From contig CANMKG010000002.1 of the NCBI GenBank assembly GCA_947498505.1, positions 620,001-684,000 on the forward strand: a stretch of DNA of 64,000 nt. Reading direction: 5' to 3'. The translations under genes were made by a program, and so were the position numbers. Shown here one piece after another: positions 33,285-64,000 of the stretch. Numbering within the stretch: the stretch's first letter is position 1; the number at the start of each line of letters is the position of its first letter. The DNA comes from an uncultured Maribacter sp. (GTDB lineage: Bacteria > Bacteroidota > Bacteroidia > Flavobacteriales > Flavobacteriaceae). Below the pieces are notes generated by a model. That model did not search any database. It saw only the letters and a list, made by a program, of their open reading frames with translations, and was not told the DNA's origin.

Positions 33285-34595
33285 ATGAGCATTGAATTAA
33301 TAAGTGTAATAGTTCTTTTTTTAAGCTTTGCGTGTCTTTTGGCTTACGGGGTTCCTGTGGCTTATTCCATAGGTATTTCAACCACTATTGTTTTAATCAT
33401 TAACATTGCATTTTTACCATCAATCACAACTGCATGTCAAAGAATGACTACTGGGATTGATAATTTCGCATTGTTAGCTATTCCGTTTTTTATTCTGGCA
33501 GGAGAAATAATGAATAGAGGAGGTGTTGCCAGACGGTTAATTGATTTTGCTAAATCGCTTATAGGAAGCTTTCCAGGGGGGTTAGCATATGTTAATATTA
33601 TTTCAGCGATGCTTTTTGGAGCAATTTCTGGTTCTGCAATTGCAGCTGCATCCGCAATAGGAAGTACATTAACTGATAAAATGGAGTCTGAAGGTTATCC
33701 AAGAGAGTTTAGCGCTGCGGTTAATATTAGTTCCTCTACAACGGGTCTTTTAATTCCACCTAGTAATGTGCTTATAATTTTTGCTCTTGCAAGTGGAGGT
33801 TCTGCTTCAGTGGCAGCATTATTTATTGCGGGTTATATTCCAGGAATACTAGTTGGATTAGCCATAATGCTTATGGTTTATATCTATGCAAAGCGGAAAG
33901 GACTTCCAAGAGCAGAGCGAGTAAGTTTTAAAAAACTTTGGAACGATTTTAAAAATGCTATTTTAAGCTTAACCTTATTGATTATTGTTGTTGGAGGTAT
34001 TGTTGCAGGAATTTTTACAGCTACAGAGGCGGCCGCTATAGCCGTGGTATATGCAGCCATACTTGGTTTTTGGAATAAAGAATTAAAAATTGCTGACATT
34101 AAGCAAATTTTATTGAAAAGTGCAAAAACCACTGCAATTGTAATGTTTTTAATTGCTACTTCAATGGCAATGTCTTGGCTTTTTTCTTTTGAAGGTATAC
34201 CGCAAATGTTGACAGGTCTATTAGTAGATTCTGTAAATAACCCAATATTGGTATTTTTGATTATAAACCTTATTCTACTTGTTGTAGGTACTTTTATGGA
34301 TATGACTCCTGCAGTGCTCATATTTACACCAATATTTTTACCTGTTGCAATGGCTCTTGGTATGCATCCAGTGCAGTTCGGGATGATAATTGTTTTAAAT
34401 TTATGCATAGGAGTCTGTACTCCACCAGTTGGTACATTATTGTTTGTTGGCAGTGGAGTTGCAAAAGTTCCCGTAACAAAAGTTATTAAACCTTTATTAC
34501 CATTATTAATTGCTATGGTAGTTGTTCTTTTTATGATAACTTATTTTTCAGAAATTTCTTTGTGGTTACCACGCTTTTTTGGATTAATAGATTAA
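33285..34595 (+). CDS. TRAP transporter large permease (DctM type)
   Basis: The 436-residue inner-membrane protein has about 12 helices and DctM landmarks: DNFALLAIPFFILAGEIMNRGG, FGAISGSAIAAASAIGS, SSTTGLLIPPSNVLIIFA and TFMDMTPAVLIFTPIFLPV. It carries out sodium- or proton-coupled uptake of the acid delivered by the lipoprotein at 31801. Its end overlaps in sequence with a possible upstream extension of the next gene, but the real start of that gene lies at 34637. Confidence 0.93.
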   Translation: MSIELISVIVLFLSFACLLAYGVPVAYSIGISTTIVLIINIAFLPSITTACQRMTTGIDNFALLAIPFFILAGEIMNRGGVARRLIDFAKSLIGSFPGGLAYVNIISAMLFGAISGSAIAAASAIGSTLTDKMESEGYPREFSAAVNISSSTTGLLIPPSNVLIIFALASGGSASVAALFIAGYIPGILVGLAIMLMVYIYAKRKGLPRAERVSFKKLWNDFKNAILSLTLLIIVVGGIVAGIFTATEAAAIAVVYAAILGFWNKELKIADIKQILLKSAKTTAIVMFLIATSMAMSWLFSFEGIPQMLTGLLVDSVNNPILVFLIINLILLVVGTFMDMTPAVLIFTPIFLPVAMALGMHPVQFGMIIVLNLCIGVCTPPVGTLLFVGSGVAKVPVTKVIKPLLPLLIAMVVVLFMITYFSEISLWLPRFFGLID

Positions 34596-34636
34596 CTTGT
34601 TATTTTAGAAAAGTTACAACATTGTATATACCCTTT

Positions 34637-36862
34637 ATGAAATTTTTATTTGTTTTTTCGCTTGCCTTTATTTTATTTTCTTGTCAAACATCGTATACCG
34701 AAACCAAAGTAGATTTAAGTCCTTATGTATTAGAAGAAGGATTTAAGCTTGAGGTGGTTGCAGCAGAACCTTTGTTAGAAGCGCCTGTTGCTATGGATTT
34801 TGATGCCCAAGGAAGAATTTGGGTAGTGCAAATGCCAGGCTACATGAATGATATGCAGGGCTCTGGAGAGGACAAACCTACAGGAAGTATCCAGATACTT
34901 GAGGATAGAGATGACGATGGAATTGCAGACCACGCCAAAGTATTTTTAGACAGTTTAATAATGCCAAGAGCATTGGCTCATGTATATGGCGGACTTTTAT
35001 ATGCTGAGCCACCAAATTTATGGTTTGTTGATATTGAAAACGACAAACCTGTTAATCCCGTTTTGGTAGATTCGTCATATGCTGAGGTCGGTAATCCGGA
35101 GCACCAACCTAATGGATTATTATTAAATATTGATAATTGGATTTATAATGCAAAATCAAACTATAGGTATCAACGAAAAGATGGGGTATGGAAAAAGGAA
35201 CCTACGACTTTCAGAGGGCAATGGGGTATATCAAGAGATAATTTTGGTAGATTATATTATAATGACAATTCTAGACAGTTATTAGGAGATTATGTTTTAC
35301 CCAATACAATGGTGCATAACGAATATTACACTCCTAAAGTTGGTGTTAACAAGATGCTAACGAACAATCAACGTGTTTACCCATTGCATGCAACAACTGT
35401 CAATAGAGGGTATTCTAAAGGAGTTTTAAATAAAGATAGTATCTTAATTAATACAACATCAGCATGTAGTCCATTGGTGTATTTAGGAGACGTTTTTCCA
35501 AAAACGTACATGAATAATAATGTATTTGTATGTATTCCAGAAGGTAATTTAGTTAAAAGAAATGTTTTAACATTTTCGGGAGATTCAACAATTGCAAAAC
35601 AAGTTTGGGATAACAAAGAGTTTTTAGCAGCAACTGATGAGGGTTTTCGACCAGTAAGTCTTAATAACGGTCCTGATGGTAGTTTGTATGTTGTTGATAT
35701 GCATAGAGGTATGATTGGGCATCATGCTTATTTAAGCCCTTATTTAAAGAAAAAAGTAGAAAAAACCCGTTTAGATACAATTGTAAATTTTGGAAGGATA
35801 TTAAAAGTAAGCCCTGTCGATAAAAAAACAAGTCCGAATATAAATTTTGATAAGTTGAATAGTTCTGAACTAGTGGACTTATTATCAAGCAAAAATGGAT
35901 GGATTAGAGGTAGAGCTCAGCATTACCTGATTTTTAAAGAAATGCAAAATGAACTTGAGGCAGTAAAAAGACTTGGCTTAGATGCTGAAAATGAGTTTGT
36001 ACAAATACATGCGCTTAGAATATTGGATGGGTGGAACGCATTGTCATTTGAATATTTAATTGATGTTGCTAAAAAGAGTAAAAATCAAACAGTAGCACAT
36101 GCACTCGTATTGGGAGAACAGTTTATAAGTAAAGAAAACGAAGAAAAGGCAGCGGAGTTTTTTAAAGGTTTAGAAGAGAGAAATAGTGCTCTGGTAGATT
36201 TGTATTTAGGTAATACTTTGGGGGGCTGGTTAAAAGTAAATGAAGGAGTATTTTATGATTTAGCTGCGAAAATACTTGTTAGAAATAGCAATAGACCTGT
36301 TGTCAAGGAAGCTTTTTTAAGTGGATTAGGAGGTGCTGAGAAAAAACTTATAGAGCATTTGGAGGAGTTACCATCTTTTACAGATACTGACTTTAAAAAA
36401 GAATTGCTTGCGATAATAGAAAATAGAGAGGCACAAAAACCAAACCCAATTTATAAAGGAAACGCAGCACATGAAGATACACGTACAGCTGGAGCAAAAA
36501 TGTTTTATAGCATTTGCGCATCTTGTCATGGCATTAATGGGCAAGGTATAGAAGGTTTGGCGCCACCGCTTATAAATTCAAAATACGTAAGAAACCCTAA
36601 AGTATTAGCATTAATAATACTACATGGTTTAGAAGGGCCCGTAGAAGTTGATGGGAAGCTTTACGATTATAATTTGGCAATGCCCGGACTTATAAGAAAT
36701 GATAAGATTTCTAATAAAAATATTGTAGATATTATTTCGTATGTATCTAATGCTTTTTCAGATAGCCCTAAAATTCTAGGTACTAAAATAATTGATTCTC
36801 TTAGAAGTGTAAAAGCAATTTCAGGCAACGAATTTACTGAGAAAGAGTTGGAAGAATTCTAG
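34637..36862 (+). CDS. PVC-type c-haem lipoprotein (membrane-bound dehydrogenase domain)
   Basis: The 741-residue protein starts at ATG 34637, which places a lipoprotein signal (AFILFSCQTS, Cys16) at the N-terminus. Residues 25-390 form a beta-propeller of the 'putative membrane-bound dehydrogenase' type (GFKLEVVAAEPLLEAPVAMDFD, NGPDGSLYVVDMHRGMIGHH). A helical HEAT-like region follows (about 410-590), then a mono-haem cytochrome domain with CASCHG at 627-632 and a distal Met in AMPGLI. It would accept or pass electrons in the periplasm or at the outer membrane. It is probably the last gene of the TRAP operon. The substrate is unknown. Confidence 0.88.
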   Translation: MKFLFVFSLAFILFSCQTSYTETKVDLSPYVLEEGFKLEVVAAEPLLEAPVAMDFDAQGRIWVVQMPGYMNDMQGSGEDKPTGSIQILEDRDDDGIADHAKVFLDSLIMPRALAHVYGGLLYAEPPNLWFVDIENDKPVNPVLVDSSYAEVGNPEHQPNGLLLNIDNWIYNAKSNYRYQRKDGVWKKEPTTFRGQWGISRDNFGRLYYNDNSRQLLGDYVLPNTMVHNEYYTPKVGVNKMLTNNQRVYPLHATTVNRGYSKGVLNKDSILINTTSACSPLVYLGDVFPKTYMNNNVFVCIPEGNLVKRNVLTFSGDSTIAKQVWDNKEFLAATDEGFRPVSLNNGPDGSLYVVDMHRGMIGHHAYLSPYLKKKVEKTRLDTIVNFGRILKVSPVDKKTSPNINFDKLNSSELVDLLSSKNGWIRGRAQHYLIFKEMQNELEAVKRLGLDAENEFVQIHALRILDGWNALSFEYLIDVAKKSKNQTVAHALVLGEQFISKENEEKAAEFFKGLEERNSALVDLYLGNTLGGWLKVNEGVFYDLAAKILVRNSNRPVVKEAFLSGLGGAEKKLIEHLEELPSFTDTDFKKELLAIIENREAQKPNPIYKGNAAHEDTRTAGAKMFYSICASCHGINGQGIEGLAPPLINSKYVRNPKVLALIILHGLEGPVEVDGKLYDYNLAMPGLIRNDKISNKNIVDIISYVSNAFSDSPKILGTKIIDSLRSVKAISGNEFTEKELEEF

Positions 36863-47397: not shown

Positions 47398-49455
47398 ATG
47401 AGATTTAGTAATTTAAATAAGCAATTTCTAAAAGTAGTGAATTTAGCTGCTTTTGGGGTGTTTTTTATCAATATAATGTGTCTTGGGCAATCTGAAGATA
47501 AGATTCAATTTAAAAATAAAAAAGACCTTGTTTTTGGTGGCCAGTTTAAAGATTTAATTCTTCCAATGCCGATAATTAATGGCCTTGAAACCGAAGGCAT
47601 ATGGGGAAATAAAAATGTTGTTCCTCGTGATAAAGATAATGGCATTGAGGATAATGAGTGGTGCTATTGGGGAGGAAACCCTATACTTGGAAATGATGGT
47701 AAATACCATATTGCAATATGCAGATGGCCAGAAAATAAAGGGCATCATGGTTGGTTTAATTCTGAGGTGGCACACTGTGTCTCTAATAACCCAATAGGAC
47801 CTTATAAAATTACAAATACAATTGTTCAAAAAGGTCATAACCCAGAAGTTATTAAAATGCCCGATGGCAGTTTTGTATTACATGTTTTAGGTTCAAGGGT
47901 TTTTAAGGCTAACAATATGGAAGGCCCTTGGGAGCCATTTGGTAAATTAAAACTTGATGTAAGAGGGTTTAGACAAAACGATAGGTTTGGTTCGAACCTT
48001 ACTTCTGAGTTTAGACCTGATGGAAGCATAATAATGATGAAAAAAGATGGAGATGTAACAATTTCAAGAGATGGAATGTTAGGACCTTACAAAATGATGT
48101 CTATTAATAATTATACTAGATCAACGGGCTATCCTGAAGATCCGGTAATTTGGAGAAGTAGGCATCAGTATCATGCAATATACAATCACGCGCAAGATCG
48201 TAAAAGTGGTTACATGCGTTCTATTAACGGTATTCATTGGAAAAACGAAGCTGGCTTGCCCTATGATGCTTCTACTACTTTTTATACTGATGGTACAAAG
48301 AACAGTTGGTATAAGTTTGAAAGACCAAAAGTCCTTCAAGATTCTTTAGGTAGAGCATCTCATCTTTCTTTGGCTATTATGGACGTGGCCAAAAGTGAAG
48401 ATAAAGGAGGTGACAATCATAGTTCTAAAAACATGATTATGCCACTTGTATTGGAGAAACTTATTACTATACTAAATGAAGAACTCATAACCCATAAAAC
48501 AAAAAAAATCAGACTTAAAATTAAGGCTGAAAATGGATTTAATCCTCAAGAAGATTTGGATATAAAATCATTACGTTTTGGCTCTGATCAACTTGTAAAT
48601 TATGGTGGGGGTTGTAAGGCAACAAGTGTAAAAAATGAAGGAAAAGATTTAATTATCACCTTTAAAGGACAAAATGGAATTAACCATCGAGACTTCGACT
48701 TTAAGTTAATAGGAAAAACGAAAGATAAAAATCTTATATATGGTTATGCGCTTCTTCCTGGTAGGTCAATAAAAGAGGAAGCACTTATTCTGCTTCCTAT
48801 TAGAATAAATGATGTAAATGGTAGAAAAGTAATTGAAAGTGGAGTTGAAAACGCAGGACTCTCACAATCGAAAAACTTTAAGGTCGAAATTCGAGAATAC
48901 AGCAGAACTGGACTTCGAATTGTAAAAACGGTTGACTTTGCCCCTCTCTCTTCATATGAAAGCAAAAAGATAAGTGTTTCTCTTGATGATTCTGATTCCG
49001 CTAATTATGAATATGAGATGGTAGTTCTTGGTGATAAAAACTATGATGAATTTTGGAAAAAGGTTGATGAAACTAATAGTGCAGTTGTGTTTTCTGGAAA
49101 TTGGAAAAAAAGAGAAAAAGAAGATAAAACCTGTTTTTTAAATAACGAAATGATAAGCAATACCATTGGTGATACGGTAGAATTTATTTTTACCGGTACA
49201 AGAGCAAAAGTATATGGAAAACTAGGGCGTAAAGTTGGCTCGTACGATGTGTATATCGATGGTGAATTTATAGAGAAAATAAGGTGTGGTTGGAGGCCAA
49301 TGTCTCAATCTCCTATTTATCAAACAGGTGTGTTAAATGCTGGAAAACATATCTTGAAATTGGTTAAATCTAAGTCTGAATATATGGGAGAGGTTACGAT
49401 AGATGCATTCGCTTATGAATCCGTGCCTGCTATTTGGAAAAAGACCGAACTTTAA
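47398..49455 (+). CDS. GH43-like five-bladed propeller protein with C-terminal jelly-roll
   Basis: The 685-residue protein has a signal peptide ending near LGQSED. Residues 40-340 look like a five-bladed beta-propeller of the GH43/GH117 kind (WGGNPILGNDGKYHI, GHNPEVIKMPDGSFVLHV, GYPEDPVIW), though I cannot place it in a family. A middle part (about 345-540) looks like a beta-sandwich. The C-terminal 120 residues (VFSGNWKKREK ... GSYDVYIDGEFIEKIRCGW) resemble a galactose-binding-like or CBM fold. It lies between GH3 and the decayed gene in the PUL. It probably cleaves or binds the target glycan; candidate catalytic carboxylates are not certain. Confidence 0.65.
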   Translation: MRFSNLNKQFLKVVNLAAFGVFFINIMCLGQSEDKIQFKNKKDLVFGGQFKDLILPMPIINGLETEGIWGNKNVVPRDKDNGIEDNEWCYWGGNPILGNDGKYHIAICRWPENKGHHGWFNSEVAHCVSNNPIGPYKITNTIVQKGHNPEVIKMPDGSFVLHVLGSRVFKANNMEGPWEPFGKLKLDVRGFRQNDRFGSNLTSEFRPDGSIIMMKKDGDVTISRDGMLGPYKMMSINNYTRSTGYPEDPVIWRSRHQYHAIYNHAQDRKSGYMRSINGIHWKNEAGLPYDASTTFYTDGTKNSWYKFERPKVLQDSLGRASHLSLAIMDVAKSEDKGGDNHSSKNMIMPLVLEKLITILNEELITHKTKKIRLKIKAENGFNPQEDLDIKSLRFGSDQLVNYGGGCKATSVKNEGKDLIITFKGQNGINHRDFDFKLIGKTKDKNLIYGYALLPGRSIKEEALILLPIRINDVNGRKVIESGVENAGLSQSKNFKVEIREYSRTGLRIVKTVDFAPLSSYESKKISVSLDDSDSANYEYEMVVLGDKNYDEFWKKVDETNSAVVFSGNWKKREKEDKTCFLNNEMISNTIGDTVEFIFTGTRAKVYGKLGRKVGSYDVYIDGEFIEKIRCGWRPMSQSPIYQTGVLNAGKHILKLVKSKSEYMGEVTIDAFAYESVPAIWKKTEL

Positions 49456-53611: not shown

Positions 53612-54994
53612 TTATCCAATGTTTATAACCAGATAAGGTTTTCTTTTTTTGACTTCTAAAACCTCGTCCGGACTAATTAAAGTTTTCCAGGCATAAATTT
53701 TCTTAAGTTTTGGCAATGCCTCTAAAGTGTTTAAACCTTGGTTAGTAATCTTTGTTCCATAAAGGTTGATAGTAGTTAAGTTTTTTAATGTGGAAATTTT
53801 TTTTAAACCTTCATCAGTAATTGGGTTAGAATTTAAATTAAGAAGTTGTAAACTTTCTAGTTTACTAATAGTAGTTAAATCTTCGTCTGTTATATTTACA
53901 TCACTAACATCTAACCATACAAGCTGTTCTCTTAATTTAACCAAATCTTCCAAGTTTTTTTTGGTAATGGATTTACCGGGATTTAATTTTACATCCAATA
54001 GGTTACTGGTATTACTAAGCGTTTTAATAATAAACCCTTGCGCAATTAAAGAGTTAATTGCTTCTGTATTCCCTGGAGGTACCTTTTTAAGCAATTCAGA
54101 CTCCTTTTTTGGATTAAGCCCAAGTACGTTTGCAATTTGAGACTTGTTCTCATTTATTAGATTCATACCAGCAATAATTCCGGAAGGGTTGGCCCCATTT
54201 AAAATCCATATTTTTAGAACGTTTATTTCTTCTTTAGACAATGGAGTTTTGCCTTCGGGAGGCATATAGTCTTCATGATTAATTGGTAAGGTAATTCTAT
54301 TAATCAATTCACTTTTTTCTAAATTACCAGCAACTACTGTGTTTTTGTTTTTTCCACCCTTTAGAATTAAATCAAAAGAGTTCAGCATTAAATCTCCTTT
54401 TCGTTTATCGTGACCATGACAACTGATGCATTTTTTTCTTAAAATTGGTTTTACTACATCTAAAAAAATATCAGCAGAATCTAATATAGCTACAGGAGGC
54501 CTTTCTTTTTCTTTTGGAGGTAATCCGGCTATTTTTCTCAAAGGTTCTGGAGCGTACTGGGTTAAATATGTTGAACCATGTGTTAAGTTACCTCCCAAAT
54601 GTCCTGCGATACCAAGTCCCATGAAGAGAATAAGCAGGATTGCAGAATATAAGTAGGATGAATTTTCTATCCTTTTCCAAACTGTGATACCAAAAGTTAA
54701 AATTGCAATTAAAGCCACCAATAACCCCATCCATTTGTGGTTATTTAAAGTATCCAAATTATATCCTCCTTGAAGAGAAAGCATATATCCCAGAATACAT
54801 GAAAGTACGGCTCCAATGGCGCCCAATGCAAGCGCAAAAGGAACGGCATTATTTAAATAAACGTGTTTTTCGTTTTTTGAAGCAAAATGCATAATCATCC
54901 CTATAAATAGGAAACCAATAGGAAAATGAACTATTAAAGGATGAAATCTTCCAATAAAAATGATGATGTCTGCTACTTCTACTGTATGTTCCAT
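53612..54994 (-). CDS. DUF2231 membrane cytochrome with leucine-rich repeats
   Basis: The 460-residue protein has four membrane helices in the first 130 residues (DUF2231; GRFHPLIVHFPIGFLFIGM), a planctomycete-type cytochrome C domain with one haem site CISCHG (189-194) and the conserved MPPEGKTPLS, and a C-terminal leucine-rich-repeat part (about 330-450; LQLLNLNSNPITDEGLKKIS). It is an inner-membrane c-type cytochrome, perhaps the quinol-side partner of the other proteins in this cassette. It is the last of four genes, separated by 3 bases from the beta-propeller gene. Confidence 0.85.
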   Translation of the reverse strand: MEHTVEVADIIIFIGRFHPLIVHFPIGFLFIGMIMHFASKNEKHVYLNNAVPFALALGAIGAVLSCILGYMLSLQGGYNLDTLNNHKWMGLLVALIAILTFGITVWKRIENSSYLYSAILLILFMGLGIAGHLGGNLTHGSTYLTQYAPEPLRKIAGLPPKEKERPPVAILDSADIFLDVVKPILRKKCISCHGHDKRKGDLMLNSFDLILKGGKNKNTVVAGNLEKSELINRITLPINHEDYMPPEGKTPLSKEEINVLKIWILNGANPSGIIAGMNLINENKSQIANVLGLNPKKESELLKKVPPGNTEAINSLIAQGFIIKTLSNTSNLLDVKLNPGKSITKKNLEDLVKLREQLVWLDVSDVNITDEDLTTISKLESLQLLNLNSNPITDEGLKKISTLKNLTTINLYGTKITNQGLNTLEALPKLKKIYAWKTLISPDEVLEVKKRKPYLVINIG

Positions 54995-54997
54995 AAG

Positions 54998-56065
54998 CTA
55001 TATTCTATGCAATTTATATGGATAAACACCACCAGAATTCCATTGACATACGTAAAGATTTTTATCATTATCTATACAGACATCATGGCAATGTTTGAAA
55101 ACAGGCTGATCTTGTAACATTAACCTTAATTTGCCTTTTTTATACTTTGGTTTTGTTCCTCCCGGATTGGAAACTACTTTGTTGCTTTTGTCTAAAATGG
55201 TTACAAAACCTAGGTTTTTTTGAATGTTGTAATTGTTCTTTTTCATTCCAAAGCAAACGCCAGAGTATACATTTTCACCGTCAATAACAGGTCTACTAAC
55301 ATAGGCACCTGGTAAATAGTAAGTTTCAAGATACTTACCATCTAAAGTAAATCGTTTAAACGCATTTTTGATTCTTGCACTACAAAGTAATGTAGGGTTA
55401 TTAGGGTCTCTAGTGTCAATGGTTATGCCATGAGCTTGTTTAAATTTATTTTCTTGAAGAAAACTATCACCTCCAAATTTTCTTATAAAATTGCCTTTAT
55501 AGTCATATTGCAGAATAAATTGTGACCCGTAACCATCTGCTACGTAAATATCGCCGTTGGGTGCTATTGCTGTTTCTGTAGGGTGGTATTTTGATTTAAT
55601 ACTATAAATGCCTGTTTTTTCAGGGTGCTTTAGTTCAAAGATTATTTGACCGTTTAAAGAACACTTTAAGACTCTTCCAGAACTGGAATCAGTAATGTAA
55701 AGGTATTCCTTGTCACCTTCATCGTGAATACTTAGACCATGAGCAGTAGGTAAGTCTAATGTCCAACTGTTCAATAGTTTTCCTGAAAGGTCATAAACTA
55801 GAATGTTATTTTTTTTATGATCAGTAAGTAGGTAAAGGCGCTTTTTTTTGTCAATTACCATTTCATGACAATTATTAACAGGGTATTTATTGGAATTCAG
55901 TTGACCCCAACTTTTTTCAAGTCGATACTTAAAATCGCCGTGACCTAATATTGTCTCATATGTTTTGGGTTTTGAAGGCAATATGTAAAAAGGAACGACA
56001 GATGACGCCAGCGCAGAACTTGCTGATAAAGTTGATTGTTTAATAAATTTTCTACGAGTTATCAT
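54998..56065 (-). CDS. Tat-exported NHL-type beta-propeller protein
   Basis: The 355-residue protein starts with MITRRKFIKQSTLSASSALA, a Tat signal. The rest is six repeats of a beta-propeller (LYLLTDHKKNNILVYDLSGK, YLYITDSSSGRVLKCSLNGQ, IAPNGDIYVADGYGSQF). No catalytic motif is seen. Proteins of this kind bind ligands or act as sensors beside DUF1501 and DUF1553 proteins. Its start is adjacent to the DUF1501 stop (no gap), so it is translated with that gene. Confidence 0.85.
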   Translation of the reverse strand: MITRRKFIKQSTLSASSALASSVVPFYILPSKPKTYETILGHGDFKYRLEKSWGQLNSNKYPVNNCHEMVIDKKKRLYLLTDHKKNNILVYDLSGKLLNSWTLDLPTAHGLSIHDEGDKEYLYITDSSSGRVLKCSLNGQIIFELKHPEKTGIYSIKSKYHPTETAIAPNGDIYVADGYGSQFILQYDYKGNFIRKFGGDSFLQENKFKQAHGITIDTRDPNNPTLLCSARIKNAFKRFTLDGKYLETYYLPGAYVSRPVIDGENVYSGVCFGMKKNNYNIQKNLGFVTILDKSNKVVSNPGGTKPKYKKGKLRLMLQDQPVFKHCHDVCIDNDKNLYVCQWNSGGVYPYKLHRI

Positions 56066-57544
56066 TTATGATAATATATCTTTTACAACATGGCCATGAA
56101 CGTCTGTCAACCTAAATCTTCTGCCCTGGTGTTTAAATGTTAGTTTTTCATGATCTATTCCCAATAGGTGTAACAATGTAGCCTGAAAATCGTGTACATG
56201 AACCGGGGCTTTTACCACATTATAACTGAAGTCATCAGTTTCGCCATAAACTAAGCCTGATTTAACACCCGCTCCTGCCATCCACATTGTAAAACATCCT
56301 GGATGATGATCTCTTCCATAATTATCTGCTGTAAGTCTTCCTTGTGAAAAACTAGTACGTCCAAATTCTCCACCCCAAACAACTAAAGTGTCCTCAAGTA
56401 ATCCTCTTTGTTTTAAATCTTGAATGAGTCCTGCTGTGGCTTGATCAGTATCTTTGGCTTGTCGGGCTATTCCTCTTGGTAGTCCACCATGTTGATCCCA
56501 CCCCATATGATATAGTTGTATAAATTTTACATCACGTTCCGCAAGTCGCCTAGCTTGAAGACAGTTTGCTGCATAGGTTCCAGGCGTTTTCGCATCTTCA
56601 CCGTACAACTTATATACATGTTCAGGTTCTTCTGATAAATCAACTGCATCTGGCACAGAATTCTGCATTTTATAGGCCATTTCGTATTGATTTATTTTTG
56701 ATTGAATTTCAGGATCCTGCCATATGTTATATTGATTTTTATTTAAATCACGGATATAATCTAAAGCCCTTCTCCTATCGTGATCATGAACACCGTGTGG
56801 ATTGTTTAAATAGAGTACAGGGTCTTTGCCAGACCTAAATTGAAGACCTTGGTGATGAGATGGTAAAAAACCATTTGCCCATGCCGAAGAACTCAGAGGT
56901 TGTGCTCCACCTCCTTTAGAAAGCATTACTACAAAATTAGGTAGGTCATTATTGTCTGTACCCAAACCATAACTTAACCAGGATCCAATAGATGGTCTTC
57001 CACTTTGTTGAGAACCAGTTTGTAGAAACATAACAGCAGGTTCGTGATTAATGGCATCTGTCTGCATTGATTTAATAATACACAGGTCGTCAACAATTTT
57101 TGCGGTATGCGGAAATAAATCGCTTATCCAAGCACCAGATTGACCATGTTGTTTAAAATCAAAAATAGATTTTACGAGAGGAAAAGTTGATTGATCTGAA
57201 ACCATACCAGAATTTCTTTGCGTTCCTCTAATTGAGTCTGGAATTTCTTTTCCGTGCCATTTAGCCAAGCTTGGTTTATAATCAAAAGTTTCTATCTGAG
57301 AAGGACCTCCGCTTTGAAAAAGATAAATGACTCTTTTAGCTTTAGCCGGGAAATGAGTTCCGTTTAATATTCCTCCTCCCAATGAATTTTGAATTTTATT
57401 CTTTCCTAAAAGAAGATCATTTCCAAAACCTGAAGTAGGGCCCAATAAACTTGCCAATGCAATAGAACCAAAACCTAAAGAAGTGTTTTTTAAAAAACCT
57501 CTTCGACTTTCTGAAAACTCATTATTGTTTAATTTCTTTTTCAT
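56066..57544 (-). CDS. DUF1501 protein with Tat signal
   Basis: The 492-residue protein has the Tat signal SRRGFLKNTSLGFGSIALAS (residues 13-32). DUF1501 is an alkaline-phosphatase/sulfatase-like fold; visible marks are KRVIYLFQSGGPSQIETFDYK, the central HMGWDQHGGLPRGI, VVWGGEFGRTSFSQ and GRDHHPGCFTMWMAG. The function of the family is unknown, but it is nearly always encoded beside DUF1549/DUF1553 cytochromes, as here (5-base gap). It should be folded before export and may hold metal ions. Confidence 0.9.
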   Translation of the reverse strand: MKKKLNNNEFSESRRGFLKNTSLGFGSIALASLLGPTSGFGNDLLLGKNKIQNSLGGGILNGTHFPAKAKRVIYLFQSGGPSQIETFDYKPSLAKWHGKEIPDSIRGTQRNSGMVSDQSTFPLVKSIFDFKQHGQSGAWISDLFPHTAKIVDDLCIIKSMQTDAINHEPAVMFLQTGSQQSGRPSIGSWLSYGLGTDNNDLPNFVVMLSKGGGAQPLSSSAWANGFLPSHHQGLQFRSGKDPVLYLNNPHGVHDHDRRRALDYIRDLNKNQYNIWQDPEIQSKINQYEMAYKMQNSVPDAVDLSEEPEHVYKLYGEDAKTPGTYAANCLQARRLAERDVKFIQLYHMGWDQHGGLPRGIARQAKDTDQATAGLIQDLKQRGLLEDTLVVWGGEFGRTSFSQGRLTADNYGRDHHPGCFTMWMAGAGVKSGLVYGETDDFSYNVVKAPVHVHDFQATLLHLLGIDHEKLTFKHQGRRFRLTDVHGHVVKDILS

Positions 57545-57549
57545 AGAAT

Positions 57550-60500
57550 TTATCTTAGGGTAAAACTATCAGTGGTATTCATTATACCATTAATTACTAT
57601 AGCTAATGCGGCAACGTGTGTAGGATTTAATTTTGGGTGAATTGGAGTGTTACCAATGTTAGTATAGGCTAAGGCATCGTCATTTTCGGTGATAAACCTT
57701 TTTAACTCATCTTGATGAAACTTCTTTAAAATAGATATTTCATTGTTATCAGCAGATCTACCAGTACTTAATTTAAAAGCCTCTTTTAGTTGTAACTCTA
57801 TATTTCCTTTATGTTTCAGTATTAAGTTTTCAGATAGTATTCTTGAGGCCTCAATAAATTGAGGGTCATTTAATAAAACTAAAGCTTGTAAAGGTGTACT
57901 TGTTTGCCTTCTTTTTACATTACATACACCTCGTTCATTAACATCAAAAATTAGCATACTGGGTGGAGGTGAAGTTCTTTTCCAAACAGTATAAATACTT
58001 CTTCTATAAAGACCTTCTCCGGGCTCCTGTAAATATTTATATCGCCATGGTTTATTACTGAGTTCTTCCCAGAGGCCTTTTGGTTGATATGGATAAACAC
58101 TTTTTCCTCCTATTTTAGGAGATAATAACCCACTAATTGCAAGTGCATTATCTCTAATCATTTCGGCGGTCATTCTAAGATTTGGACCTCTTGCCAAAAG
58201 AGCATTATTGGTATCTATTTCCAATAAATCCTTTCGCATTTTAGAACTTTGCTGGTATGTAGCTGAAGTAACTATTAATTTGTGTATTTTTTTTATATCC
58301 CAATTACCTTCTCGAAAGGTAACGGCTAGCCAGTTTAGTAATTTTGGATGGGTAGGTAGAGAACCTTGGTTTCCAAAATCATCTGAAGATTCCACTAAAC
58401 CTCTTCCAAAGTGCATTTGCCACAATCGGTTAACAAAAACCCTACCGGTTAATGGATTATTTTTATCAAACAACCACTTGGATAAACCCAGTCTGTTTTT
58501 GGGTAGGTTTTCATTAAAAGGAAGTATAGCTTCCGGAACATTTGGAAAAACCTCTTCGGTAGGTGCGTCATAGGCACCTCTATCTAAAATAAATGTAGGT
58601 CTAGGGCTTGGTAAATCTCCCATTACCATAATTTCCGGAATAGTATCTATATTTTGATTTAAATTAATTTTGAGTGCCTTCAGGTTTTCTTTTAAAGCTT
58701 TAGCCTCATCATTATGGTTAATATTATAGTGGTTAGATATTAATCTGGAGTTTTCAGGTTTTGATACGTTCTTTAGTAAGTCAACTGTTTTTTTGCTGTC
58801 AAAGTCATAACTAATTTCTAATCCAGATAATTCTCTATCATAAATTTTTAGTTCATCAATACCTCCTTTAATGAACGTTTTCATCTTGCTACGTGCGCCT
58901 AAGGTAAATCCATCAAACCTATAGGTGTGTATATTTGGTTTGTATAGTATGGATTTGTATAGATTGTCAATTTCGATATCAGTAGCTATTTCGTTTCCGT
59001 TGAGGTATAAATGTACTCCCGATGCTTTTCCAAAACCGTCGTATGATATTGTTATATTAGACCATTCTTTTTCCGGGATGGGTGCTTTAGCTTTAACCTG
59101 TATTGCGTTAGTTGGCCAAGAGTGAGCAATAACAAATTTTGGTTTATTTTGTTCTAGATATAATGAATATCCTCTTAAACCTACCCTTAAGTCTTCGCAA
59201 TGATATAAAATACCTGCCTCAGGATATACAATGTCAGGAAATATTGAAAGAGATAAAGTAAAAGCATTAGTATGTTCAAACTTACCTACATTTTTAGGCA
59301 AAGTAATGGTTGTAAAATCATTTAAAAAAACACCATTATTTTTATAACCATTTCTTATTTCCGGCTCCTTGATTTTTACAGGTTTACCTTTTGGTGCCAG
59401 ATTAGGGCTGTTAAATATTTTTTTATTGATACCCTTAAATTTGTCAAAAGGATAGTATGCTATTAAACCATTTTTAAGATTTTCTTTTATTGATTTTATT
59501 ACTTGTTCAGTATTCTTTTTCCATAATTGAATATCGTTAGAGCTAGATTTTTCAACCGTTAAAAGTTTACCTTCTGTCTTTTCAATGTTAGTATTAATGT
59601 AGGCTAAAACTTTTTCTTGTTCATCGTTGGTTAGTAAAAGAGATGGCCCTGGAGTTTGATCAGGCCCGTAAACGGGAGTGCCATGTTCATTGGTACTGTT
59701 AAAAAAAGCGGCTATTTGATAATAATTTTTTTGACTAATTGGGTCGTATTTATGATCATGACATCTAGCACATTCTATACTAAGCCCCATAAATGCTTTT
59801 CCGACAGTTAAAGTTCTGTCAGCAACATATTCTTGTCTGTATTCTTCAAATACAATACCCGCTTCCGAGTTTTTTTTATGTAACCTGTTAAAAGCAGTAG
59901 CTAGAGTACTTTCTTTAGTTGGTTTAGGTATTAAATCTCCTGCAAGTTGGAAAGTGGTGAATTCGTCATACGACATATTACTATTAAATGATTTTATTAC
60001 CCAATCTCTATAGGAGCTAAAATCACGATGTTTGTCGTCTAGGTATCCATCGCTATCTGCATATCTTGCCACATCAAGCCATTCAGCGGCCATTCTTTCT
60101 CCATACTTTGGAGAATTCAAAAGTTTGTCTACAATTTTTTCATAAGCGTTGTTAGATTTATCATTTACGAAAGCTTCAATTTCTTTTATTGTAGGTGGCA
60201 ACCCAGTGAGGTCAAAATACAATCTTCGTATTAACGTTTCTTTAGTTGCTTTTTTTGAGGGAAGTAATTTTTCCATTTCTAATTTGGAAGCCACAAAAAA
60301 ATCGATTTCATTTTTTGCCCATTTAAAATTCTTTATTTCAGGAATCTCTTCTTTTTTTGGTGGTATAAAAGCCCAATGTGATTTGTATTGAGCGCCTTGC
60401 TCTATCCATTTATACAAGATAGCCTTTTCTCTTGGGCTTAAAACCAAGTTACTCTCTGGAGGTGGCATAATTAATTCTTTATCTGAAGAAAAAATACGCT

Positions 60501-60792
60501 TAACGGATTCACTTTTATTTGGATGCTTTGGAATTATAGCGTGTAAATTGTCATTATCTTCAAGAGATGCATAGGCATTTTCAGCAATGTCAAGCCTCAA
60601 ACCCGCTTTTTGGTTGGCTTTATCAGGACCGTGGCAAGCAAAACACTTATCTGATAAAATGGGTTTTACATGATAGTTGTAATCAACATTTTCAGGGATG
60701 TTTTCATAAGCTTCAACTATTGATTCTGGCACATTGTTATCGCAGCTAACAAAAAAAACCACCAAAAAAAATACAGTAATAAATTTCTTCAT
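57550..60792 (-). CDS. DUF1549/DUF1553 cytochrome-like protein with LamG domain
   Basis: The 1080-residue lipoprotein (VVFFVSCDNN, Cys17) has in order: a planctomycete cytochrome domain with CFACH at 50-54, a DUF1549 domain (about 160-365) with the second haem-like site CARCH at 341-345, a laminin-G-like lectin domain (about 440-670) and DUF1553 (about 765-1040; PLTGRVFVNRLWQMHFGRGLV). It is large and exported, perhaps bound to polysaccharide through the LamG part. It starts the four-gene cassette; a -7-like TATTTTTG lies upstream on the minus strand at 60816-60809. Such genes are typical of Planctomycetes, so transfer or shared ancestry is possible. Confidence 0.9.
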   Translation of the reverse strand: MKKFITVFFLVVFFVSCDNNVPESIVEAYENIPENVDYNYHVKPILSDKCFACHGPDKANQKAGLRLDIAENAYASLEDNDNLHAIIPKHPNKSESVKRIFSSDKELIMPPPESNLVLSPREKAILYKWIEQGAQYKSHWAFIPPKKEEIPEIKNFKWAKNEIDFFVASKLEMEKLLPSKKATKETLIRRLYFDLTGLPPTIKEIEAFVNDKSNNAYEKIVDKLLNSPKYGERMAAEWLDVARYADSDGYLDDKHRDFSSYRDWVIKSFNSNMSYDEFTTFQLAGDLIPKPTKESTLATAFNRLHKKNSEAGIVFEEYRQEYVADRTLTVGKAFMGLSIECARCHDHKYDPISQKNYYQIAAFFNSTNEHGTPVYGPDQTPGPSLLLTNDEQEKVLAYINTNIEKTEGKLLTVEKSSSNDIQLWKKNTEQVIKSIKENLKNGLIAYYPFDKFKGINKKIFNSPNLAPKGKPVKIKEPEIRNGYKNNGVFLNDFTTITLPKNVGKFEHTNAFTLSLSIFPDIVYPEAGILYHCEDLRVGLRGYSLYLEQNKPKFVIAHSWPTNAIQVKAKAPIPEKEWSNITISYDGFGKASGVHLYLNGNEIATDIEIDNLYKSILYKPNIHTYRFDGFTLGARSKMKTFIKGGIDELKIYDRELSGLEISYDFDSKKTVDLLKNVSKPENSRLISNHYNINHNDEAKALKENLKALKINLNQNIDTIPEIMVMGDLPSPRPTFILDRGAYDAPTEEVFPNVPEAILPFNENLPKNRLGLSKWLFDKNNPLTGRVFVNRLWQMHFGRGLVESSDDFGNQGSLPTHPKLLNWLAVTFREGNWDIKKIHKLIVTSATYQQSSKMRKDLLEIDTNNALLARGPNLRMTAEMIRDNALAISGLLSPKIGGKSVYPYQPKGLWEELSNKPWRYKYLQEPGEGLYRRSIYTVWKRTSPPPSMLIFDVNERGVCNVKRRQTSTPLQALVLLNDPQFIEASRILSENLILKHKGNIELQLKEAFKLSTGRSADNNEISILKKFHQDELKRFITENDDALAYTNIGNTPIHPKLNPTHVAALAIVINGIMNTTDSFTLR

Positions 60793-60906
60793 TATTGATT
60801 GTTTTATTCAAAAATAGTTTTTTAAACAAAGTGATTTTTTGACTTTAACCGTTTTATTAACAGTTAATGAATTACTTTTTAATACTATTTTTTGTTAATT
60901 GTATTC

Positions 60907-62121
60907 ATGAAAAATGAGGAGTATTATACTGTAGTTGAAAAAATTATTGAAAGCAAATCGTTTGGTCACTCCAAAACTTACGCTAATTTATTACGGTATT
61001 TATTAAAGTGTACTTTGGCTAATGAGGTGCCAAAAGAGACTACAATTGCTCAAGAAATATTTGGAAAATCTGATTTTGATCCTTCAAATAGTACATTAAT
61101 AAGGGTCTATGCATATAACTTAAGAAAAAAGATTACGTCCTATTATAATAAGGAGGGCAAAGAAGATAAACTAGTAGTAAAAATACCTAAAGGAGGATAC
61201 GAGATTTTTTTTGAAGAAAAAACTTTGGATAAATTGCAAAGAAAAAATGTTCAAAAAAAATGGTTGATGCTATCTGGTTTCTTGTTTGTTGTTGCTCTTA
61301 TTTATTTGATTGCTTCTAAGAATAAGCCTGAAAACGAAAATTATGTAGCTCAAAGTGAACTTTGGAACGATTTTTTTTTAAACGAAAAACCAGCGATGAT
61401 TGTTTTGGGAGATTTGTTTGTATTCAGCGAAACAAATTCTGAAACGGGTCGTACATATAACGTTAGGGACCCTAGAGTAAACTCTATGGAGATGTATGAG
61501 AAGTTGGCCTCAACATATGATAAAACAAAATTTGAACTAAACCCAATTAGCTATACTTATTTGGTTAAAAACAGCTCAATGTGGATTGATGATTTGGTTA
61601 AATTGTTTTATCCAACAAACAAAGATTATGTCATAAGAACAATGTCTCGTTTTAATACCAAAGAGTTATCTGAAAATAATTTAATAGTTGTTGGAATGCT
61701 TAAAACCCTTGGTGTTTTTAAGAACTATTTTAAAAATTCGAATTATCTTTTTGAAACTTCAGACAGCTTAAACTCTTCTGAAAAAATAATAGAAAAAGGG
61801 ATCAACTATTCTGCGAACGGAAATCCAGATTCGTATCATACAGATTATGCTGTAATGGTAAAAATACCAGGTCCAAATAACAATTTGGTCTACCTTTTTG
61901 GAGGTTTGTGGGACACAGGTACTTCACAAAGCCTAAAGAATTTTACCGATTCAAAATTAATTTATGATTTGGAGTTAGAAATGAAAAAAAAGTTTGGAAA
62001 AATTCCGGAATATTATGAAATATTTTTTGAGGTAAATGGGATTGACAGAATGGAATTAAACTCTAAGATTATCTCCATTAATGAAATTAAAGCAGACACA
62101 AATATTTGGGATATAGACTAA
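60907..62121 (+). CDS. Membrane-anchored winged-helix regulator
   Basis: About 404 residues from MKNEEYYTVVEKII (ATG 60907). Residues about 1-100 look like an OmpR-type winged-helix module (KETTIAQEIFGKSDFDPSNSTLIRVYAYNLRKKI, then IPKGGYEIFFEE), as in CadC/ToxR-type one-component regulators. A single membrane helix (about 119-136; WLMLSGFLFVVALIYLIA) is followed by about 265 extracytoplasmic residues that match nothing I know. It lies between the divergent cytochrome cassette and the second GH97 and may sense sugar products in the periplasm directly. Confidence 0.75.
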   Translation: MKNEEYYTVVEKIIESKSFGHSKTYANLLRYLLKCTLANEVPKETTIAQEIFGKSDFDPSNSTLIRVYAYNLRKKITSYYNKEGKEDKLVVKIPKGGYEIFFEEKTLDKLQRKNVQKKWLMLSGFLFVVALIYLIASKNKPENENYVAQSELWNDFFLNEKPAMIVLGDLFVFSETNSETGRTYNVRDPRVNSMEMYEKLASTYDKTKFELNPISYTYLVKNSSMWIDDLVKLFYPTNKDYVIRTMSRFNTKELSENNLIVVGMLKTLGVFKNYFKNSNYLFETSDSLNSSEKIIEKGINYSANGNPDSYHTDYAVMVKIPGPNNNLVYLFGGLWDTGTSQSLKNFTDSKLIYDLELEMKKKFGKIPEYYEIFFEVNGIDRMELNSKIISINEIKADTNIWDID

Positions 62122-62338: not shown

Positions 62339-64000
62339 ATGAACAAAATATTGATATTTAAAACATGCCTATTATTTGTTTTTCTGCAATCGTGTACGAA
62401 AGAAGAAAATAAAGGGATATTAGTAAAAAGTCCAAATTCAAACTTTGAATTTACTTTAAAAATACAGGAAGATATATCAACACCAATATATTCGGTTGAT
62501 TATAAAGATAACACAGTCGTTAATAATTCTAAACTTGGTTTTGTATGGGGGATAGACACCTTACAACTAAAACCTTCTGAAACTTTCAACGTAACTGAGG
62601 TAAGTACAAATAAAGTAGACACAAGCTGGAAACCTGTCTATGGAGAAAAAAATGAATACTCAGAAACATATAATGAATCCGTTTTTAAGTTTGGAAATCA
62701 AGAAAATGAAGAGGTATTTAACTTAAGAGTACGGGCATATAACGAAGGTGTTGCCTTTAGGTATGAGTTTTCTAACCCTTCGAATGATTTAATTTACATT
62801 CAAAAAGAAAATACCGAGTTTTCATTACCTCTACAATCATCAGCATGGGCTTCGATAAGGGCACAAAAAGAAATCATTAAAATGCCAATTGCGGATATTA
62901 CCAAAGCTGTAGAAAGACCGTTATTGATTGAATTGCAAGACTCTACATTTGTGGCGATTGGAGAGGCAGCTTTAGTAGATTATTCTAGAATGAAGTTTAC
63001 CAAAAAGCAAGACAGTCTGGAAACTTTAGTTTCTGAATTAAGTGGTAGGGTAAAGTTTAATTCTTCGTTTAAAACGCCATGGCGCTTTATAATGGCGTCT
63101 GAAAGGCCTGGGGAATTATTAGAACATAATTATCTTCTTTTGAATTTAAATGAGCCTAATAAGCTAGAGACCAATTCATGGATAAAGCCAGGTAAAATTA
63201 TTAGAGAAAGTACTTTAACAACTCAAGGAGGAATGGCTTGTGTTGATTTTGCCGAAAAGCATAATTTACAGTTTATAGAATTTGATGCTGGCTGGTATGG
63301 TAATGAATATGATGATGCGTCGGATGCAACTACTGTTACAATTGATCCAAAAAGATCCAAGGGACCATTAGATTTATTAGGAGTTATTGAATATGCTAAA
63401 AGTAAAAATATAGGGGTTATACTATATGTAAACAGGAGGTCATTAGAAAAACAATTAGATGATGTGCTGCCTTTGTTAAGCTCTTGGGGTGTAGGTGGGG
63501 TAAAATATGGGTTTGTTAACGTAGGTTCTCAAAAGTGGACAAGTTGGTTGCATGATGCTGTTAGAAAGGCAGCTGATTATAAGTTAATGGTTGATGTGCA
63601 CGATGAATATAGACCAACTGGATATTCAAGAACATATCCAAACTTAATGACGCAAGAAGGTATTAGGGGAGATGAGGAGTCCCCAGAAAATGCTATGGTT
63701 ATTAATACCATTTTTACAAGAATGATAGCTGGTGCGGGTGACCAAACAAATTGTTATTTTGCTTCTAGAGTAACTGAAAAAATGGGCTCTCATGTTTCGC
63801 AATTAGCGAAAGCCGTATGTATTTATAGTCCATGGCAATTTCTTTATTGGTATGATAGACCTGAAGGTTCTGTTGCTAACGAAGAAGGAGCAGGAGGGAG
63901 CAAAATGTTCATAAAAGAAGTGCCAGAATTAGCATTTTATGATGCGCTTCCTACGGTTTGGGATAATACTAAAGTAATTAATGGCTACCCAGGAGAGTAT
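62339..64000 (+). CDS. Glycoside hydrolase family 97 enzyme, C-terminus outside window
   Basis: From ATG 62339 (MNKILIFKTCLLFVFLQSCTKEE, lipobox Cys19) the frame is open for 554 codons to the window end. The GH97 N-terminal beta-sandwich (VKSPNSNFEFTLKIQ) and TIM barrel (FIEFDAGWYGNEYDD, IGVILYVNRRS, VDVHDEYRPTGYSRTYPNLMTQE) are clear. As in the copy at 50042, the position of the retaining nucleophile reads GGVKYGF with Gly. It is a paralogue rather than a duplicate, differing in most residues. Its own leader with a long hairpin suggests a separate transcript. The rest of the gene lies beyond 64000. Confidence 0.9.
   Translation, partial: MNKILIFKTCLLFVFLQSCTKEENKGILVKSPNSNFEFTLKIQEDISTPIYSVDYKDNTVVNNSKLGFVWGIDTLQLKPSETFNVTEVSTNKVDTSWKPVYGEKNEYSETYNESVFKFGNQENEEVFNLRVRAYNEGVAFRYEFSNPSNDLIYIQKENTEFSLPLQSSAWASIRAQKEIIKMPIADITKAVERPLLIELQDSTFVAIGEAALVDYSRMKFTKKQDSLETLVSELSGRVKFNSSFKTPWRFIMASERPGELLEHNYLLLNLNEPNKLETNSWIKPGKIIRESTLTTQGGMACVDFAEKHNLQFIEFDAGWYGNEYDDASDATTVTIDPKRSKGPLDLLGVIEYAKSKNIGVILYVNRRSLEKQLDDVLPLLSSWGVGGVKYGFVNVGSQKWTSWLHDAVRKAADYKLMVDVHDEYRPTGYSRTYPNLMTQEGIRGDEESPENAMVINTIFTRMIAGAGDQTNCYFASRVTEKMGSHVSQLAKAVCIYSPWQFLYWYDRPEGSVANEEGAGGSKMFIKEVPELAFYDALPTVWDNTKVINGYPGEY

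Follow-up and report, generated by a model that had tools for sequence, protein, structure and literature searches.

A predicted membrane-spanning regulator with a predicted tandem operator before a divergent cytochrome operon in an uncultured Maribacter

The window, a stretch of 64,000 nucleotides from an uncultured Maribacter sp., carries a gene for a putative membrane-spanning regulator that is separated by a gap of 114 bp (60793-60906) from a cytochrome operon on the opposite strand. The anatomy and the predicted fold of the regulator were computed directly. The features on which the argument rests are as follows.

60907..62121, plus strand: membrane-spanning one-component regulator, 404 aa (open reading frame, ATG aligned with the starts of relatives, AF2 pLDDT 90.6)
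60907..61218, plus strand: predicted cytoplasmic winged-helix DNA-binding domain, residues 1-104 (secondary structure of the model, VIA matches to OmpR-type effector domains)
61096-61152, plus strand: predicted recognition helix, residues about 64-82 (model)
61255..61323, plus strand: predicted single transmembrane helix, residues about 117-139 (hydropathy, charge bias, helix 109-138 of the model)
61333..62085, plus strand: predicted extracytoplasmic alpha/beta sensor domain, residues about 143-393 (AF2 pLDDT 92.5, pTM 0.90; fold of the BcsB FD and the GH67 N-domain)
60847..60867, plus strand: predicted class I operator AACCGTTTTATTAACAGTTAA, two AACnGTT units 12 bp apart (30 of 36 divergent gaps)
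60809..60816, minus strand: predicted -7 box TAnnTTTG of the cytochrome operon promoter, offset by 30 from the operator
57550..60792, minus strand: predicted target gene 1, PSCyt1 + DUF1549 + DUF1553 + LamG, 1080 aa (Pfam; divergent neighbour in 34 of 35 close relatives)
56066..57544, minus strand: predicted target gene 2, DUF1501, 492 aa (Pfam; 34 of 35 loci)
54998..56065, minus strand: predicted target gene 3, NHL-repeat protein (Pfam; 27 of 35 loci)
53612..54994, minus strand: predicted target gene 4, DUF2231 + PSCyt1 + LRR (Pfam; 10 of 35 loci, once on the other strand)

An alternative TTG start exists upstream of the reading frame at 60892; relatives begin at the aligned ATG. The regulator is present in a single copy in its genome (4.08 Mb, 37 contigs). 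It has only one hydrophobic stretch, residues 117-139, flanked by six lysines and arginines in residues 98-118 and one in residues 140-160, a bias from which the winged helix is predicted to lie inside and about 265 residues outside. The full-length AlphaFold2 model (70 sequences) reached a mean pLDDT of 90.6 and a pTM of 0.68. The first-pass annotation had read the frame as a winged-helix protein that crosses the membrane and exposes about 265 residues, and hydropathy, charge bias and the model bear this out; the neighbours that it named, a GH97 gene at 62339 and a cytochrome operon (53612-60792), are both present.

In the model, the winged helix consists of helices at residues 3-15, 23-37, 44-52 and 64-82 and of a hairpin (89-92/101-104). 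The Pfam family Trans_reg_C matches the window regulator below threshold over residues 26-98 (17.8 bits for a cut-off of 26.2), and 18 of the 27 aligned members match it at E up to 1, the best at 5.5e-4. Structural comparison with VIA aligned the modelled domain with the OmpR-type effector domains of PrrA (Z 8.0, residues 3-103, 86 residues aligned at 3.3 A), SaeR (Z 7.7) and PhoB (Z 7.1), and a profile of the winged helix only gave a weak match to an ArlR-type effector domain in the PDB (E 0.21). PMC5430869 characterises ToxR-like receptors by an OmpR-type domain linked through one membrane helix to a periplasmic sensor, and assigns to the winged helix of CadC the topology beta1-4, alpha1-3, beta5-7. 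Like ToxR, CadC and TcpP, the regulator is predicted to join a cytoplasmic winged helix, a single membrane helix and a periplasmic sensor in one polypeptide; it likewise has no phosphorylation domain and would act on a local target promoter. It differs from CadC, as that source describes it, in that the model has a helix at residues 3-15 where CadC has beta1-beta4, and no strand before residue 89, so that the N-terminal four-stranded sheet is absent. Its Trans_reg_C score also falls short of the cut-off, and its sensor is modelled with the fold described below. Neither a CadC nor a ToxR chain stands among the best 50 Foldseek matches listed for the full model, an absence that does not argue against a relation. 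Since a helix replaces the first sheet, the model suggests a protein that would work like a ToxR-like receptor without having the defining topology of that group. Its earlier designation as ToxR/CadC-like thus holds for the layout and the way of working, and fails for the N-terminal sheet and the Trans_reg_C score.

Two proteins at other loci (L022:1447-3075 and L023:1465-2976) have the winged helix in common with the regulator and carry a TPR-type C-terminus, clear in L022 and weak in L023, in place of the sensor; divergent from sulfatase-like genes (read by eye), they are a sister architecture. Matches on Rhizobiaceae plasmids cover just the first half of the regulator query.

The outer domain had been described as belonging to no recognised family, and the searches agree. 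Pfam returned no significant match for the sensor in the 27 members searched, the weak and scattered hits to TRCF (4 of 27 members, best E 5.7e-4; 17.6 bits for the window regulator against a cut-off of 25) and DUF7176 (3 of 27, 0.002) being judged chance; NCBIfam gave for the window regulator one match over the outer domain, far below the cut-off, and sequence searches of the PDB found nothing for this domain below E 0.8. Foldseek alone was weak as well (E not below 0.0076). When the best 1000 Foldseek chains were realigned with VIA-align 2 (992 aligned), the sensor model matched the flavodoxin-like domain of BcsB (9fmt_F; Z 10.5, 3.3 A, 162 residues) and the N-terminal domain of a GH67 alpha-glucuronidase (1k9d; Z 10.2, 3.2 A, 130 residues), followed by a Methanococcus voltae S-layer anchor (Z 8.5), GH84 (6pwi, Z 8.2) and GH115 N-terminal domains (Z 8.1 for 4c90, and 7.8). 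The next row after the BcsB/GH67/GH84/GH115 group had a Z of 4.6, a clear drop. The BcsB and GH67 rows, at Z about 10, aligned 128-163 of 262 sensor residues, and identity to the domains of the group is about 9-16%, with no match at the level of sequence. For most of its length, the modelled sensor domain adopts an alpha/beta fold of the BcsB-FD/GH67-N type. BcsB, GH67, GH84 and GH115 proteins are enzymes or a synthase subunit, whereas the regulator, judged by its genomic context, is neither.

Nine sensor residues are invariant or nearly so in 70 members (W153, G168, D169, R187, N192, G263, G338, G378, R381). Four of them, D169, N192, G263 and G338, lie in the full-length model at or just past strand ends or near helix starts, a placement that would suit a ligand site. 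Direct glycan sensing by the domain, which the first-pass annotation had suggested, is possible given that this fold recurs in proteins that handle carbohydrates; a shared fold alone shows no function, and a sugar ligand is putative.

A contig scan with the single regulator sequence as query found no relative, and a scan with an alignment query, over one genome per species, found 137, the best 80 of which were kept. These best 80 of 137 come mostly from Flavobacteriia and other Bacteroidota, and also from MAGs labelled KSB1, Calditrichota, Melioribacteraceae, Thalassobius and Actinomycetota. The Thalassobius (L051) and Actinomycetota (L080) contigs carry typical family members, that of L080 being almost identical to a Calditrichota one, and both bins may be contaminated. 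A match to the regulator was found in 23 of the 299 genomes of the family sample, and 11, including the genome of the window, hold a close relative (at least 42% identity). Across the phylum, the sensor was found in 13 of 395 genomes, all within reading frames of 350-440 residues; no other architecture was therefore seen in these 395 genomes. Outside Bacteroidota, the gammaproteobacterium Catenovulum adriaticum, isolated from algae, has two relatives at 27-28% identity, and the family also occurs at two loci in Novosphingobium. Interrupted copies of the gene were seen in Zobellia uliginosa C3R17 (L053, 10001-10705) and in genome G444 (L154). The 70-member set used below is the window plus 69 of the 80 loci, after removal of near copies and of L053, which is interrupted but was retained in the gap counts. 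Seventeen further phylum loci exclude L154, whose regulator is broken, and L151, L152, L155, L156 and L158, whose genes had already been seen. Six loci were examined of the seven full-length plasmid matches (H5 was left out).

The most regular property of the family is its head-to-head arrangement. Among the best 80 of the 137 relatives, every locus with an upstream gene has it on the opposite strand (79/79, with mechanically called frames of 120 aa or more; L080 has none), against 150 of 723 other pairs of frames of at least 150 aa in the same loci. The family sample (L002-L030), which partly contains the same genes, gave a divergent upstream gene in 27 of 29 loci, the exceptions being L012 and L025 with a gene on the same strand, and the 17 further intact phylum loci gave 16, the exception being L159. 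Four plasmid loci are clearly divergent (L174, L175, L178, L179), one faces a doubtful frame (L176), and L177, one of the two Novosphingobium loci, has no divergent neighbour, its frames being doubtful.

The identity of the partner changes with distance. Close relatives face the PSCyt1 gene, apart from L061, where a CBM9 gene stands in its place. In Catenovulum, one relative (27% identity) is divergent from annotated DUF1553-DUF1501 genes and the second from a c-type cytochrome/DUF1080 operon. Distant relatives face GH88/BNR, GH43, GH28 and 3-keto-disaccharide hydrolase genes as identified by Pfam, and SusC/TonB, GH2, uxaC and GH3 genes as read by eye. Pfam was run on eight neighbour genes of relatives and nine window proteins; in other genomes, the names uxaC, GH2, GH3, SusC/TonB, mannonate dehydratase, sulfatase and glyA were given by eye. 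Family members usually stand head-to-head with sugar-catabolism genes. Conceivably, the regulator and planctomycete cytochrome genes moved together.

Two further proteins of the window deserve mention. One (34562-36862) combines DUF7133 with cytochrome c and, since relatives lie nearby in 6 of the 35 close-relative loci, may belong to the same pathway. The other, of 685 aa (47398-49455), lies between GH3-like and GH97 genes and has no Pfam match at E up to 1e-5.

The divergent gaps share a site whose conservation and uniqueness were computed directly. The tandem operator AACnGTTTnnTTAACnGTTAA is found in 30 of 36 shared gaps and nowhere else in 733,634 bases. Written as the class I pattern AACNGTTTNDTTAACNGTTAA, it occurs in 30 of the 36 gaps of the window and its 35 close relatives and in none of the 44 gaps of more distant relatives, whereas a class II pattern, TTAACBGTNNNNRTAACSGTTA, occurs in 30 of these 44 gaps, in none of the 36 and nowhere else in 836,754 bases; these counts come from patterns derived from, and written after seeing, the same gaps, and from loci that are not independent, several being Zobellia and Arenibacter copies. 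A form common to both classes, AACnGT-N6-AACnGTTA, is present in 64 of the 80 gaps, always in the same orientation, with 7 occurrences elsewhere, and did not arise in 200 rounds of base shuffling of the 44 gaps; L061 and L070 are without it. Of 34 class I-type sites, 19 have an extra AACnGT unit 19 bp upstream; of 30 class II sites, 28 have an extra AAC 11 bp upstream. A unit spacing of 11 bp was discarded as wrong, and the 12-bp pattern was used instead.

Class I sites were also counted across whole genomes. The genome of the window holds exactly one exact class I site, at 60847, and two loose sites adjoining other genes, neither of them GH97. Nine of the 11 genomes with a close relative contain one class I site and no more, in each case before the regulator, 41-227 bp from the match, and the remaining two (G177 and G180) have the common form only, before the regulator. 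Since most regulator-bearing genomes are of the same species as the gap loci, such counts test uniqueness and not presence. A class I site was found in 4 of 288 genomes without a close relative; three of these (L115, L120, L124; about position 1501), in genomes with no match to the regulator at all, read AACCGTTTTATTAACGGTTAA between glyA, named by eye, and a divergent gene, and may be the site of another regulator. As a control, the reversed pattern was searched in the 299 genomes: it hit 1 for class I, where the actual pattern hit 13, and 6 for class II, where the actual pattern hit 11. Locus by locus in the family sample, 8 of 10 close relatives are preceded by the class I form and all 10 by the common form; of 19 distant relatives, 9 are preceded by the class II form.

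The 12 class II sites of the family sample include 10 that lie just upstream of a listed regulator. Another (L127) is inside a coding region, and the last (L136, position 1501) stands 95 bp before a GH2-like gene that no regulator adjoins. On the same contig of this genome, G236, at a distance of about 278 kb, lies the regulator L025, whose neighbour is on its own strand and which no class II site precedes. In two Zobellia loci, related regulators (L102 and L103) directly face a GH2-like gene. This one case agrees with a site tied to its target instead of to the gene of the regulator, and the GH2-like gene is possibly a target of L025 in trans. In a Persicobacter plasmid, new to the pattern, a class II site that deviates in its final base stands next to a GH2-like gene. 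Beyond the two sets, the common form was found in only 1 of the 17 further phylum loci, and the operator is absent from both Catenovulum gaps; it is therefore a property of these two sets and does not extend to the family at large.

These two sets are also distinct lineages of regulators. A maximum-likelihood tree of the 70 members places the 29 PSCyt1-linked regulators, together with L061 and L067, in a set of 31 (support 100/100) and unites the 26 class II members in a separate one (100/100). Two supported sets match two operator classes, and regulator clade and operator class therefore go together; the class II operator is that of the sister clade, beside glycosidase and uronate genes. Of the first 108 positions, 22 distinguish the two sets strongly. 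In the recognition helix, residue 64 is L in the PSCyt1-linked set and mostly R in the class II set, and residue 68 is mostly Y in the former and N in the latter; in the wing, residue 97 is S or G versus Q. Residues 64, 68 and 97 are candidate DNA-reading positions.

The position of the site relative to promoters suggests how it would act. Sigma-A promoters of flavobacteria have a -7 box, TAnnTTTG, at -12 to -5 according to PMC9723704. On the cytochrome side, 20 of 34 loci, among them that of the window, have such a box at a distance of 30 or 31 bp from the operator; on the regulator side, a TAnnTTTR box lies 11-13 bp from the operator in 23 of 34 loci and is absent in the window. Base shuffles give chances per position of about 0.0008 and 0.003, respectively. 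By these offsets, the operator spans roughly -43 to -62 before the cytochrome operon and also overlies the regulator's own -33 region, a layout that would be usual for activation of a target combined with self-repression.

We consider it most likely that the protein, a membrane one-component regulator, controls a single target, the cytochrome operon, along with its own gene, and have good though not full confidence in a more explicit scheme, in which it is dedicated and acts locally, binds the tandem repeats, activates the operon, holds down its own gene and responds to a signal from outside. Within the 114-bp gap, the AACnGTT repeats with their 12-bp spacing would be bound by the cytoplasmic winged helix, probably by two copies arranged head to tail along one side of the DNA; direct repeats spaced by about one helical turn are typical of OmpR-type binding. 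Once bound, the protein would activate the divergent PSCyt1/DUF1549/DUF1553-DUF1501-NHL-cytochrome operon from a site upstream of the presumed start, and would repress its own gene from the same operator. The signal, probably a sugar or a product of sugar oxidation, would bind the outer domain beyond the inner membrane and alter the dimer state or the position of the DNA-binding domains, with no phosphorylation. DNA binding, the sign of regulation, the signal and the workings of the dimer are all inferred here.

The sign of regulation could also be the opposite: with the same operator and target, the protein would be a membrane-tethered repressor, and ligand would release the cytochrome operon. 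Coverage of the presumed -33 region in the regulator's own promoter (23/34 loci) fits repression, at least of the regulator, as does the TAnnTTTA box at -18 in 26 of 30 more distant relatives, where the site would cover the regulator's own start. On the cytochrome side, however, the site lies upstream of the presumed promoter, the usual position of an activator, and CadC, the best-known ToxR-like receptor, is described as an activator (PMC5430869). We regard repression of the operon as unlikely, although it is the strongest competitor of activation.

What the outer domain perceives is open to a second alternative, namely the state of a partner protein, for example the divergent cytochrome lipoprotein or a TonB/SusC-type receptor, instead of a small ligand. 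FecR-type anti-sigma factors read the state of a partner in this manner. The cytochrome partner is conserved in all but one of the 35 close relatives, SusC/TonB-like genes (by eye) are the divergent partner in 8 of 79 loci, and BcsB acts in an assembly with BcsA and BcsC, as PMC11379886 reports. The partners of the family are, however, very diverse, from the hydrolases assigned by Pfam to the GH2, uxaC and SusC genes read by eye, and such diversity within one sensor family suits a pathway-linked ligand better than one protein partner; we give the partner hypothesis a still lower probability. It is very improbable that the regulator controls the surrounding PUL with its GH97 genes at 50042 and 62339, since, although the latter begins 217 bp downstream on the same strand and read-through would be possible, relatives of the window GH97 proteins were found in none of the 35 close-relative loci (stretches up to 10 kb on each side) and the genome has its sole exact class I site at 60847. 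Of the local control proposed at first pass, the part concerning the cytochrome operon is thus sustained by divergent synteny and a shared operator, and the part concerning GH97 is, on the evidence of the 35 loci and the exact class I site, not supported. The single-target regulator of the cytochrome operon remains our preferred reading.

Membrane regulators with DNA-binding domains are widespread, and Bacteroidota are rich in TTRs (Demey et al., 2023, PMC10269533). By combining a presumed DNA-binding domain with a single-pass transmembrane region in one protein, the regulator falls in this broad class; the portion of the survey available to us describes no family with such a sensor, operators or genomic pairing. 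The initial view that membrane-crossing regulators are unusual for PULs was too strong: SusR, as PMC3878776 presents it, is itself a membrane regulator of glycan genes with a periplasmic sensor and a cytoplasmic DNA-binding domain, and SusR and HTCS are both membrane-anchored PUL regulators. The same source calls SusR unique to Bacteroidetes, whereas the family examined here, compared with SusR by description only, also occurs in Catenovulum, Novosphingobium and KSB1-type MAGs. Among the literature matches listed (titles and abstract starts, from mainly openly accessible literature), no earlier description of the regulator family, its sensor or its operators was found.

As a tentative proposal, to which we attach appreciably less confidence than to the scheme for the locus itself, these proteins may form a cross-phylum class distinct from SusR, HTCS and ToxR-like regulators, marked by a helix-capped winged helix and a sensor with the accessory fold of GH67, GH84, GH115 and BcsB, each copy standing head-to-head with one catabolic or cytochrome operon and using, in at least two clades, a clade-specific tandem operator. 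If so, a fold that enzymes use for an accessory domain would have been turned to the sensing of carbohydrates, and sugars would induce the PSCyt/DUF1501 cytochrome operons. The poorly understood cytochrome operons of the planctomycete type (PSCyt/DUF1549/DUF1553/DUF1501) gain a putative regulator with a predicted operator and a single predicted target, and the identity of the inducer would point to the substrate. Two clades with two operators make a DNA-recognition code testable, and through the wider family, inducers could be matched to many gene clusters for algal glycans in marine Bacteroidota.
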